In this document: positions 37,447 through 53,580 of the stretch, in pieces
Position numbering within the stretch: position 1 is the stretch's first letter
How the letters are laid out: every line of letters starts with the position of its first letter
NCBI GenBank assembly: GCA_001771575.1
Contig: MEUD01000001.1
Location: 248,001 to 312,000 of the forward strand
DNA from: a candidate division WOR-1 bacterium RIFOXYB2_FULL_45_9
Lineage (GTDB): Bacteria > Margulisbacteria > WOR-1 > O2-12-FULL-45-9 > XYB2-FULL-48-7
Direction of reading: 5' to 3'
Length of the DNA stretch: 64,000 nt
Program-made: the position numbers and the translations under genes
The notes under the pieces: generated by a model
Seen by the model: only the letters and a program-made list of their open reading frames with translations
What the model was told of the DNA's origin: nothing
The model's database searches: none

Positions 37447-37460
37447 TTCAATAATAAACG

Positions 37461-37519
37461 ACTACCAACTGACAACCAACAACTCTTGTTGTATAATTAC
37501 TGGGCTGTCAGTTGGTAGT
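37461..37519 (+). promoter_or_regulatory. tRNA-Val promoter embedded in a 14-base inverted repeat
   Basis: CTGACA (37469-37474) and TATAAT (37492-37497) are 17 bases apart and face tRNA-Val. The -35 box is part of a perfect 14-base arm ACTACCAACTGACA (37461-37474), whose reverse complement lies at 37506-37519, around the predicted start of transcription. A nested 6-base hairpin CAACAA/TTGTTG (37477-37491) lies inside. The arms could be an operator or the trace of a small palindromic element. Confidence 0.65.
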
Positions 37520-37527
37520 TAAAACGG

Positions 37528-46867: not shown

Positions 46868-48094
46868 TCATTCCCCCTTGTTTATATTATCATCAAAAAC
46901 GCCGCTTTGACCACCGGATTCTTCCAGCTCGTCTTCGGCAAATGAATCCTCAAGGTCTTCGTCGGTCAAAGTAAATTCGTCTTCCGCGCCGGCTTGTTCC
47001 TGGACCGGGGTTTCTTCCGGCTCGACCGGGACCGCCTCTTCAATTGGCGCCGTCTCTTCCATCGGTCCCTGGCTCTCTTCAATGGGTTTTTCCGGTTCGT
47101 TGTCAAAAGCCAGGGGGGGCATAATTACGACTTCGTCCTCTTCAAAGCCGACCAGACGGATCGCTTTTTTCGCTTTCAGATTACCGGCCTGGGCGAGCAG
47201 TCGCAGGTGGCGGCCCAGCTTCACGCTGATCGCCGATTTAATGCTGGTGTCAAGGGAGATCACGTCTCCGGGTTCGAGTGTGCCCAGATCGGTCGGGGAG
47301 AGGGTAGTTTCTCCAAGCGTCGCCGAGATCGGGATAATGATCTTCCGCAGGATCGCCGCGGGGAGCCGGTCAACGTTGATCTCTTTCTGGTGCTCGCCGC
47401 TTTCGTATAGCTTGATCAATGTTTTCGCGGTCGACGCTTGGTAGCCAAAAACGATCCGGCCGGTTGGATTATCGTTGAACGAAACATCGGCCGTGAAAGA
47501 GATGAACGTTGAAGAAGGGTTCACCGCCGGGTCTAATATAATGTCGGGAGAGCCAAGAAGGGCCAGTTCCGGGGTGTTGAATACGTGGCCATACTCCTGG
47601 GCGTAAAGCGGCAAATAATTCGACAGAGCAAGCTTAAGCGTTTCGCCTTCAGCTTCTGTTAAACCGCGGCCCAGCGGTTCCAGGTCCCGGCTTCCTAAAG
47701 AATGATTGATGATCGAGTTCGCGATCCCCAGATCAAGGATCATCTGGATGTTTTCGTGGATCCCCGGAATGGACAGAGATGTCTGGGCGACGTGGCCGGA
47801 TAAACCCCGTAAAAAATTCAAATAAGTTGTTTGTTCCGCCCAGCAGGCGTAGAATTCAGTCCCGATCCCCAGTTCACGGCGAAGCTTTAAGAATAACGAC
47901 TGCATAAAATGGTAGTGGATCTTAAGAAACAGGTTTAATTCGTGTTTAGCCAATCGGTCAAAGCCAAACAAACCGGTTTTTACGCGTTTTCCCAGGGCTT
48001 TAGCTGGACGATACGTGGTCCAGTCGCCGATCGCTGGCGGCAATTTGATGGAGATCTTTTGCGATCCTATTTCGGGCTTTGCTCGTTCAGCCAT
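46868..48094 (-). CDS. fliM: Flagellar motor switch protein FliM with acidic C-terminal tail and no N-terminal CheY peptide
   Basis: C-ring protein of 408 residues; FliM usually has about 330. The central CheC-like domain and the SpoA domain (about 240-315) are recognisable. The N-terminus (MAERAKPEIGSQKISIKLPP) has no LSQxEIDALL peptide, the usual docking site for phosphorylated CheY. Instead there is a tail of about 90 residues rich in Glu, Asp and Pro, ending in clusters such as EFTLTDEDLEDSFAEDELEE. Switching may therefore use a different contact. FliY is an alternative name for SpoA-containing variants, but FliN follows separately. Confidence 0.88.
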   Translation of the reverse strand: MAERAKPEIGSQKISIKLPPAIGDWTTYRPAKALGKRVKTGLFGFDRLAKHELNLFLKIHYHFMQSLFLKLRRELGIGTEFYACWAEQTTYLNFLRGLSGHVAQTSLSIPGIHENIQMILDLGIANSIINHSLGSRDLEPLGRGLTEAEGETLKLALSNYLPLYAQEYGHVFNTPELALLGSPDIILDPAVNPSSTFISFTADVSFNDNPTGRIVFGYQASTAKTLIKLYESGEHQKEINVDRLPAAILRKIIIPISATLGETTLSPTDLGTLEPGDVISLDTSIKSAISVKLGRHLRLLAQAGNLKAKKAIRLVGFEEDEVVIMPPLAFDNEPEKPIEESQGPMEETAPIEEAVPVEPEETPVQEQAGAEDEFTLTDEDLEDSFAEDELEESGGQSGVFDDNINKGE

Positions 48095-51020: not shown

Positions 51021-52268
51021 TTACTTTTTGACGTCGGCCGATTCGTAGAACTGCTTGTTGGTCTTGAATTCCTTCAAGCGTTCGATCAATTGTTCGGTCG
51101 CTTCAACCGTCTCGTAACTGTCCATTACTTTTCGCAGAAGCCACATCTTTTTGAGGTCTTTTTCGTCCATCAGGAGCTCTTCGCGGCGGGTGCCGGAAAG
51201 CCTAACGTCGATCGCCGGGAAGACGCGCCTTTCGGCGAGCTTGCGGTTGAGGTGGAGTTCCATGTTCCCCGTTCCCTTGAATTCCTCGTAAATGATGTCG
51301 TCCATTCTGGAGCCGGTGTCGACCAGGGCGGTGGCGATGATGGTCAGGGAGCCTCCTTCTTCAATGTTGCGGGCGGCGCCGAAGAAGCGCTTTGGCCGAT
51401 GAAGACAGGTCGGGTCAAGACCGCCGGAAAGGGTACGACCTGAAGGAGGGGTGACCAGGTTGTAGGCGCGGGCCAAACGAGTGATCGAGTCGAGTAAAAT
51501 GACGACGTCTTTCCCTTCTTCCACCTGACGTTTGCACGATTCCAGGAGGAGCTCGGCGATCCGGACGTGGTCTTCCGGCGGTTCGTCGAAGGTCGAGGCG
51601 ACGACCTCCCCTTTGACCGAGCGCTGCATGTCGGTCACTTCTTCCGGCCGCTCGTCGACCAAGAGAACTTTGATCAGAGCTTCAGGGAAATTGGCGGTGA
51701 TGCTGTTGGCGATGTTTTTCAGCACGGTCGTTTTACCCGCTTTTGGCGGCGAAACGATCAAGGCGCGCTGGCCCTTGCCGATCGGGGCGATCATGTCGAT
51801 GAGGCGGGAGGTGATGGAAGCGTCGGCATGCTCCAGGGTAAAACGCTCGTTAGGGAAGATCGGGGTGAGGTGCTCGAACGGGACCCGGTCGCGGGCCGTT
51901 TCCGGATTAACGCCGTTGATCGCTTCAATCTTCAGCAGACTGTAGTATTTTTCCCCTTCTTTTGGCGGCCTGACCTGGCCGGTGACGTAATCGCCGTTCA
52001 TCATGTCGAAGCGGCGGATCTGGGTTTGCGACACGTAAACATCCTCGCGGCTGGGGAGGTATCCGCCGGTCCGCAGGAAGCCGTAGTTTTCGGGAAGGAT
52101 CTCCAGTACCCCTTTGGCGAACATAAAACCGTTCTTCTGCGTCTGGGCTTCTAATATTTTAAAGACCAGGTCGTGTTTTTTTAATTGACGATAATTGGGG
52201 AGATCAAGTCCTTTGGCGATTTCATACAACTGGGGCAGGGTCTTACCTTCTAATTCGACAATATCCAT
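51021..52268 (-). CDS. rho: Transcription termination factor Rho
   Basis: Hexameric RNA helicase of 415 residues. The N-terminal Rho-N helix ([20 protein letters not shown]), the primary RNA-binding OB fold with [18 protein letters not shown], and Walker A PPKAGKTT are all visible. The Q-loop and secondary site segment [15 protein letters not shown] reads normally. It has a leader of about 95 bases and an SD GGAGGA. In other bacteria, rho leaders are self-regulated by termination. Confidence 0.96.
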
Positions 52269-52369
52269 TATTATCCTCCTACTAATATATCGGTCATGAT
52301 GGGTTTTTGTGAGAAATTGAAATACATAGAAAAATTGTTAGGACTCGAAGAGGCCTTTCAACAAAACCA

Positions 52370-52398
52370 ATTATACAATACTCCTTTTGCGTTGTCAA
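52370..52398 (-). promoter_or_regulatory. Consensus promoter of rho
   Basis: On the reverse strand TTGACA (52398-52393), a 17-base spacer, and TATAAT (52375-52370): a perfect sigma-70 match. Transcription would start near 52363. The -35 box lies in the repeat that flanks tRNA-Leu (CAG). Confidence 0.85.
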
Positions 52399-52514
52399 TA
52401 AAATTGGAATGCCGCGGAGAGGAATTGAACCTCCACGGGTGTGACCCCACATGTACCTGAAACATGCGCGTCTGCCAGTTCCGCCACCGCGGCAAGAGCC
52501 AATTTTATTGTCAA
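52392..52514 (-). repeat. 16-base inverted repeat flanking tRNA-Leu (CAG)
   Basis: TTGTCAATAAAATTGG (52392-52407) and CCAATTTTATTGTCAA (52499-52514) are reverse complements with one mismatch. They stand on either side of the tRNA gene, 2 bases from its 3' end and 5 bases from its 5' end. In the precursor RNA they could pair into a helix of 15 of 16 bases that extends the acceptor stem. Confidence 0.75.
52410..52493 (-). tRNA. tRNA-Leu (CAG)
   Basis: Reverse strand: acceptor GCCGCGG pairs with CCGCGGC. The anticodon stem CATGT/ACATG encloses loop TTCAGGT, anticodon CAG. A long variable arm is present and the T-loop is TTCAATT. It is flanked by complementary 16-base sequences. Confidence 0.94.
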
Positions 52515-52518
52515 ATCA

Positions 52519-52603
52519 TGCCGCTGGTCGGAATCGAACCGACACGGGGGTTAACCCCACCTGATTTTGAGTCAGGCGCGTCTGCCAGTTCCACCACAGC
52601 GGC
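52519..52603 (-). tRNA. tRNA-Leu (CAA)
   Basis: Reverse strand: acceptor GCCGCTG pairs with CAGCGGC. The anticodon stem CCTGA/TCAGG encloses loop CTCAAAA, anticodon CAA. A long variable arm is present. It starts 5 bases after the accA stop, so it is probably co-transcribed with accDA. Confidence 0.94.
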
Positions 52604-52608
52604 ACAAG

Positions 52609-53580
52609 CTACTCGTTGAAAATCCCCATTTTGCGGTACTTATTGTAACGATCCGCGATCAGTTCCCTCGCGGAGAGGGAAAGAAGAGGATTCAGATTCT
52701 TTATTATAGCAGATTTCAAGTTCTTTGCGGCAAGTTTCGGGTCCTGGTGGGCGCCGCCGGGGGGTTCCTTGATGATCTCGTCGCTTACTCCCAGCTCCAG
52801 CATGTCCTTGGCGGTAATCTTCATGGCGACCGCCGCTTCATTGGCCCGCTTGGCGTCCCGGAAAAGGATCGAGGCACATCCTTCCGGGCTGATCACCGAA
52901 TAGATCGCGAATTCCATCATCAAGACCCGGTTCCCCATGGCGATCCCCAGCGCGCCGCCGGACCCCCCTTCACCGGTGATCGCCGCGACGAAGGGGACGG
53001 TCAGCTCGGTCATTTCCCGCAGGTTCTTGGCGATCGCTTCCGCCTGTCCCCGTTCCTCCGCGCCGACTCCGGGATAAGCTCCCGGGGTGTCGATCAGGGA
53101 GATGACCGGTTTGTTGTAGCGCTCCGCCAGGCGCATCAGGCGCAGGGCTTTGCGGTATCCTTCGGGGTGGGCGGTCCCAAAATTACGGGTGAGGTTCTCT
53201 TTGGTCGAGTGCCCTTTCTGATGTCCCATAACGACCACGGAGCGGCCATCCAGCGTTGCGATCCCGCCGACTATCGCCGGGTCGTCGCCAAAGTTCCGGT
53301 CGCCGTGCAGTTCAACGAAGTCATCGAAGATCATGCCGAAATAGTCGAGAGTGGTCGGCCGCTGAATAAAGCGGGCGACCTGGACGATCTGACTCGGACT
53401 TAGGTTAGAAAAGATCTGCTGGCGGACCGCGTCGATCCTTTTTTCCATCAGTTTGACCTCTTCGGTCATGTCGAACTTACCGGATTCGCTCATTGTCTTT
53501 AGCTTCTCCAGCTTATCGTAGAGCTCGATGAGCGGTTTTTCAAATTCCAGGAGCTGTCGGTTTACTTTTTTTTCCGCCAT
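52609..53580 (-). CDS. accA: Acetyl-CoA carboxylase carboxyltransferase subunit alpha
   Basis: Transfers CO2 from carboxybiotin to acetyl-CoA together with AccD, the first step of fatty acid synthesis. It has 323 residues, the standard length. LDYFGMIFDDFVELHGDR, DTPGAYPGVGAEERGQAEA and EGGSGGALG are family signatures. It starts 2 bases after the accD stop and is followed by two tRNA-Leu genes. Confidence 0.96.
   Translation of the reverse strand: MAEKKVNRQLLEFEKPLIELYDKLEKLKTMSESGKFDMTEEVKLMEKRIDAVRQQIFSNLSPSQIVQVARFIQRPTTLDYFGMIFDDFVELHGDRNFGDDPAIVGGIATLDGRSVVVMGHQKGHSTKENLTRNFGTAHPEGYRKALRLMRLAERYNKPVISLIDTPGAYPGVGAEERGQAEAIAKNLREMTELTVPFVAAITGEGGSGGALGIAMGNRVLMMEFAIYSVISPEGCASILFRDAKRANEAAVAMKITAKDMLELGVSDEIIKEPPGGAHQDPKLAAKNLKSAIIKNLNPLLSLSARELIADRYNKYRKMGIFNE

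Follow-up and report, generated by a model that had tools for sequence, protein, structure and literature searches.

Why should one tRNA gene lie between two arms that can pair with each other, when the other tRNA-Leu genes near it do not? In the window (the whole 64-kb stretch of DNA that was analysed), the genes concerned lie on the minus strand in the order accD, accA, tRNA-Leu(CAA), tRNA-Leu(CAG), and rho. The tRNA-Leu(CAG) gene, found with ARAGORN and Rfam (genome positions 300410-300493) and supported by its fold, is 84 nt long and encodes no CCA. ARAGORN prints its bounds as 52409-52494 and the cloverleaf gives 52410-52493, with an A at 52410 as the discriminator base. In the direction of transcription, the locus reads TTGACAATAAAATTGG - CTCTT - tRNA-Leu(CAG) - TT - CCAATTTTATTGACAA, that is, a 5' arm on the leader side of the pre-tRNA (52499-52514), a leader spacer that in the predicted fold makes up the RNase P side of an internal loop (52494-52498), the tRNA, an unpaired trailer spacer after the discriminator base (52408-52409), and a 3' arm on the trailer side (52392-52407). 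In other words, leader and trailer become complementary close to the tRNA, 5 nt before it and 2 nt after it.

The upstream tRNA-Leu(CAA) (52519-52603; ARAGORN and Rfam) runs in the same direction, and the stop codon of accA (52609-53580) lies 5 nt from it, so that both tRNA-Leu genes are very probably co-transcribed with accA. Downstream is rho, the gene for the transcription termination factor (51021-52268), recognized by its Rho_N, Rho_RNA_bind, and ATP-synt_ab domains. It is preceded by a sigma-70-type promoter (52370-52398) that matches the consensus at 12 of 12 positions, with TTGACA at 52398-52393, 17 nt, and TATAAT at 52375-52370. The end of the 3' arm, as delimited by the repeat search and the promoter scan, thus contains the rho -35 box, and in this the preliminary description of the locus was correct. 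The 5' arm also carries a TTGACA, for which the promoter scan gave no -10 partner, and a second promoter there was rejected; a terminator scan of the locus found no intrinsic terminator. With the tRNA pair 5 nt behind accA and ahead of rho, this gene arrangement indicates that tRNA-Leu(CAG) is very probably made within a long mRNA-tRNA transcript.

The two arms form an inverted repeat of 16 nt (52392-52407 / 52499-52514) that is complementary at 15 of 16 positions, as first described, with A52511 facing A52395 as the sole mismatch, and it is the only such repeat found in 52000-53000. The helix consists of 12 continuous pairs, one A.A mismatch, and three more pairs by simple pairing; the computed energy of the arm duplex is -13.2 kcal/mol, and the precursor fold has a z of -4.5. 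In the predicted fold, the flank helix lies beyond a small loop adjoining the acceptor stem, where four leader and two trailer nucleotides stay open beyond a U-A pair, which places the loop at the cleavage sites. The flank score of tRNA-Leu(CAG), 31.5, is the highest among the 46 tRNAs of the genome; tRNA-Leu(CAA) and tRNA-Leu(GAG) reach 12.5 and 14.5, respectively, and so do lack such flanks. Among eight order-1 Markov sequences of 64 kb, none contained a 15/16 repeat whose arms lie 60-149 nt apart; the real window has, besides this one, another at 47370-47372. This second repeat (47370-47512, gap about 107-111 nt) occurs in three overlapping registers within an open reading frame and probably reflects simple-sequence coding.

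Could the match have arisen by chance? On this account, the rho promoter maintains the A+T-rich 3' arm with its -35 box, and the 5' arm, likewise rich in A+T, matches it by accident, so that tRNA-Leu(CAG) would stand outside the class-wide excess described below, real as that excess is. We regard this as unlikely. When leaders and trailers were traded among the 46 tRNAs of the genome, the score of tRNA-Leu(CAG) was reached with P = 0.023 for 25-nt flanks, rising to 0.087 for 35-nt flanks, and its gapped duplex energy is unexceptional, 3.4% of the traded pairs being as good; the rise and the energy rank favour coincidence. So does the heptamer TTGACAA, which is near its own reverse complement, so that two copies in the same direction pair at 6 of 7 positions. 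Against coincidence, of the 2070 traded pairs none at 25 nt and one at 35 nt matched the close placement on both sides of the tRNA. Genome-wide, gapped duplex energy revealed no tendency of leaders to pair with their own trailers, either in this genome (P = 0.36) or in the related species G001 (P = 0.24; 30 nt). Because neighbouring tRNAs within the flanks join many gapped duplexes, subsequent tests were limited to ungapped helices, with tRNA sequence masked out. The statistics of the locus, taken alone, are suggestive and not decisive for pairing at tRNA-Leu(CAG).

The comparison within the genus is with one other species, G001, in which the arms read TTTATAAATAAAAATTGG and CCAATTTTTTATTGACAA and form nine pairs, a bulge, and three more pairs (precursor fold z = -2.9). 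The inner AATAAAA-TTGG of the 5' arm is retained there with one extra A. It is difficult to explain by coincidence that G001 retains both strands of the inner CCAATTTT/AAAATTGG part, which lies outside the -35 box, with each tract lengthened: our genome has 4 A and 4 T where G001 has 5 A and 6 T, and the inner helix persists. The outer part of the 5' arm is unpaired in G001, and the TTGACA -35 box of the 3' arm is retained with the promoter, a pattern that coincidence would predict. These outer pairs are probably a by-product, since on the 3' side the sequence is held in place by the rho -35 box and on the 5' side it has not been conserved. The preliminary description had proposed to look in relatives for compensatory changes and named non-compensating ones as the evidence against pairing; in G001, the inner half still pairs, and the outer half, which has changed without compensation, goes against it. 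Beyond our genome and G001, the class survey yielded no flank pair of tRNA-Leu(CAG) with a score of at least 16. In other families of the class, the order CAA-CAG-rho occurs without the arms (L006, L007, L009, L010, and L024), with the start of rho in the trailer, and TTGACA is also found 3' of a tRNA-Leu in L003, L005, L013, and L023. It should be mentioned that the second acceptor pair of tRNA-Leu(CAG) in G001 (L002:1665-1750) is an A.G mismatch (GACCAGG / CCTGGGC) and that the Rfam score of this gene is low, at 42.5 bits; either decay or a sequencing error may be the cause.

Is such pairing confined to this locus? We surveyed the tRNA flanks of 19 genomes of the class plus single loci, as a first set of 333 tRNAs (our genome, relatives, and single loci) and a confirmation set of 176 tRNAs from eight further genomes. 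The tRNAs of most relatives were sampled in part (for example, 22 of 46 in G005, 12 of 30 in G007, and 5 of 32 in G029), and for G001 Rfam gave 46 rows and ARAGORN 44. Genes within 60 nt of the end of a contig or stretch were excluded from most survey tests (one listing kept those at 40 nt or more), and the final count covers 508 of the 509 tRNAs of the clade, one with a flank shorter than 60 nt having been dropped. The criterion was an ungapped helix scoring at least 18 between 20-nt flanks with tRNA sequence masked; the first set served to fix the scoring, the flank length, and the threshold, with several combinations examined, and the confirmation set was read at the same settings. The first set contained 14 inverted matches vs three direct, three mirror, and three complement matches. 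In the confirmation set, 8 of 176 tRNAs had inverted matches, vs none direct, none mirror, and two complement, three of the eight coming from G024, where one case was known beforehand. Pooled, 22 of 508 tRNAs had inverted matches vs three direct and three mirror, and 20,000 composition-matched pseudo-sites in the same loci gave 0.63% (binomial 4e-12). The excess drops with distance from the tRNA, to nine cases at 20-40 nt and one at 40-60 nt.

In unrelated bacteria, from distant phyla and found through a search with the rho protein, 1 of 187 tRNAs had inverted flanks (orientation controls 0, 1, and 0; trading P = 0.79), and the comparison with the class (Fisher P = 0.014) is merely indicative, since the control genomes are more masked in their 20-nt flanks (22% vs 13%) and mostly encode CCA. 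Trading of trailers within genomes gave a pooled P of 0.0003 (294 tRNAs, 11 genomes, helices starting no more than 6 nt from both ends); for the confirmation set, the corresponding values were 0.01-0.06, and 0.01-0.05 for the mean score. Taken singly, G002, G003, G006, and G010 had no excess. Our own genome has a second clear case at tRNA-Asp, where AAATAAG/CTTATTT lies beside the tRNA and the pairing extends to 14 positions; its inner seven pairs are retained in G001, and weaker cases occur at other tRNAs of the genome. The survey suggests, from sequence comparison, that paired flanks are a recurring, selected trait of tRNA genes in the class and not a one-off coincidence.

The strongest evidence that the pairing itself is kept comes from orthologues. 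When trailers were traded between orthologous tRNAs, 19 of 444 scored at least 18 with their own trailers, vs 3.8 expected after trading, and none of 5000 shuffles reached the observed number. The swap of orthologous trailers thus destroys the pairing, which indicates that leader and trailer arms coevolve. The result persists when flanks with heptamer repeats are left out (15 of 390 vs 2.6; 0 of 5000) and when, in addition, our own genome and G001 are left out (12 of 312 vs 2.05; 0 of 5000). Across genera, the pairing at one and the same tRNA is made by unlike sequences: the flanks of tRNA-Phe pair as TCGAGA/TCTCGA in G003 and as TTCGAAGA/TCTTCGAA in G005, and those of tRNA-Arg(CCG) pair in G002, G004, and G005 with differing sequences. 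A precursor helix next to the acceptor stem, as initially proposed, is therefore supported locally by the fold and class-wide by the orientation controls and the trading of orthologues.

The relatives also have heptamer repeats beside their tRNA genes, of the AGTTGTNAG type and, in G024, of the AGCTATA type, and these bear on whether the arms could be the product of events at the DNA level, with a small element or template switching leaving behind an inverted repeat that has no role in RNA. Template switching is a known route to quasi-palindromes, and this speaks for such an origin. So do the heptamers themselves, which adjoin tRNA genes in a fixed orientation and form the longest helices (L025, 25 nt, and L312). 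Repeats of the AGTTGTNAG type face the tRNA with the same end from either side (21 vs 3 in leaders, 11 vs 1 in trailers), and their density is 1.84 per kb within 60 nt of tRNAs vs 0.06 per kb at 151-1500 nt, a ratio inflated because the motif was derived from the tRNA flanks themselves and the more distant sequence is probably coding for the most part. On the other side, heptamer-like flanks account for only 6 of the 22 strong cases, and the excess of inverted matches survives their removal (16 vs 3 and 3 of 447). Neither a AGTTGTNAG / GTTGTNAGT nor an AGCTATA-type heptamer is present beside tRNA-Leu(CAG), whose flanks were classed as non-repeat.

A genome-wide pattern search for the 16-nt arm, which the preliminary description had called for, returned nine places with up to two mismatches, namely the two arms and seven others at two mismatches (the reversed pattern gave four), and no further exact or one-mismatch copy, so that the arm is not repetitive. 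Because the tRNA pair holds its place before rho in the five loci of other families that have no arms, the tRNA was not carried in, and the idea that the arms are the ends of a small element that brought the tRNA is rejected, being contradicted both by this synteny without the repeat and by the copy search. Overall, we consider an origin at the DNA level improbable. Two observations concern the repeats in their own right. In G024, a tRNA-Leu(TAG) gene (L025:1460-1625) lies between inverted arrays of AGCTATA-type heptamers that match over 25 nt. In several families, tRNA genes are directly bordered by compound repeats, which consist of G/T-rich heptamers followed by a variable hairpin and then by CGTGTTGTCAGTTAA or a similar sequence; here too, the end turned towards the tRNA is the same on both sides (L312, L240, L089, L095, L217, L283, and others). 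Heptamer repeats of the TAACTGA type are described for Beggiatoaceae and Cyanobacteria (PMC4679880); some relatives here likewise carry TAACTGA/CAACTAA-type heptamers. In comparison with that description, the heptamers here are concentrated beside tRNA genes and turn one end towards the tRNA, and the arms of tRNA-Leu(CAG) are not of this kind.

What might the helix do? We propose that the arms are a leader-trailer helix of the tRNA precursor that would close and insulate tRNA-Leu(CAG) within its mRNA-tRNA transcript, a reading that we hold to be moderately probable. The helix would hold the precursor closed at a distance of two to five nucleotides from the ends of the tRNA, so that the acceptor stem could not pair with neighbouring mRNA sequence, and the positions at which RNase P and the 3' endonuclease have to cut would lie in a small open loop. 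The computed effect on the acceptor stem agrees in direction: among tRNAs with a helix score of at least 18, real flanks raise the acceptor-stem pairing probability over shuffled flanks by 0.150 (13 of 14 cases), vs 0.026 at scores below 10, and the helix-bearing tRNA-Val of L226 goes in the opposite direction. We infer that the helix forms in the cell, that it may be under selection at the tRNA-Leu(CAG) locus, and that it may be used in insulation and ordered processing. Closure and insulation of the precursor seem the likeliest role, with ordered processing as a variant.

Another conceivable function is that of a processing stem for RNase III, in the manner of rRNA precursors, by which the tRNA would be freed from the accDA-rho transcript. 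The position of the arms resembles that of rRNA leader-trailer helices, and an RNase III gene scored over the cut-off in 10 of 10 genomes searched. However, most of the strong cases in the class span only 6-17 positions, which is short for an RNase III substrate, and all 10 genomes searched for it have RNase P RNA, which would suffice for the 5' cut. We therefore regard this function as very improbable. Cleavage of the arms by a double-strand-specific nuclease more generally, as first suggested, is possible, with nothing pointing to it. The likeness to rRNA leader-trailer helices is that a long-range helix closes a structured RNA; here the helix is much shorter and surrounds a single tRNA.

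The closing helix proposed above can be compared with nuclear pre-tRNAs of eukaryotes, in which leader and trailer are described as pairing beyond a bulge (Lee et al. 1997, as cited in PMC9705548). That description agrees with a helix that closes the precursor and leaves a loop open at the cut sites, and the earlier remark that a flanking helix is not normal for tRNA was accordingly too strong. The eukaryotic precursors are alike in that the 5' leader and the 3' trailer pair beyond a bulge by the mature ends and CCA is added later. They are unlike in that the present helix is bacterial, lies in an mRNA-tRNA transcript, has up to 15 pairs, and overlaps a downstream promoter, and in that strong helices occur here at only about 4% of tRNAs. 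The extended acceptor stems of bacteria (PMC9433436 and PMC10731613) are similar in that the leader forms pairs on the 3' side of the precursor, a structure that RNase P would have to accommodate. There, one to three leader nucleotides pair with the 3' RCCA, whereas here the leader finds its partner in the trailer, on the far side of a loop, and the gene encodes no CCA. According to PMC9433436, RNase P of E. coli works more slowly when the leader is paired with the 3' RCCA, which means that the flank helix could also hinder processing. In the part of the literature covered, we found no bacterial group reported to have covarying helices between the leaders and trailers of its tRNAs.

A tentative extension of this proposal, which we think possible but short of probable, is that the class repeatedly renews a selected leader-trailer closure with unrelated sequences, in some lineages by means of facing heptamers, and that this is perhaps tied to CCA-less tRNAs, tRNA genes embedded in mRNAs, and the lack of a standard RNase Z. 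By a simple rule, CCA is not encoded in 457 of 509 tRNAs of the clade vs 26 of 187 in the controls. No RNase Z scored over the cut-off in the 10 clade genomes searched (our own and nine relatives), vs 9 of 14 control genomes that pass. The best candidate in our genome is a weakly RNase Z-like metallo-hydrolase of 252 aa (54.5 bits, Lactamase_B_2; L484:1210-1968, minus strand). The folding and excision of mRNA-embedded tRNAs are known mainly from a few model bacteria. If the extension is true, a lineage that repeatedly evolves closing helices would be a natural experiment on whether the pairing of leader and trailer aids or impedes RNase P and the processing of the 3' end, and the class would offer independent sequence solutions (Asp, Phe, Arg, Lys, and Leu) for biochemical comparison.

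Two minor observations on tRNA flanks may be added. The tRNA-Lys(CTT) genes of two species from two families, G001 (L079) and G009 (L221), have near-identical paired flanks and our own genome differs, which may reflect either transfer or a mix-up in binning. In the window, between tRNA-Cys and tRNA-Val (37447-37527), CTACCAACTGACA and TGTCAGTTGGTAG could form a large hairpin that encloses a TATAAT.
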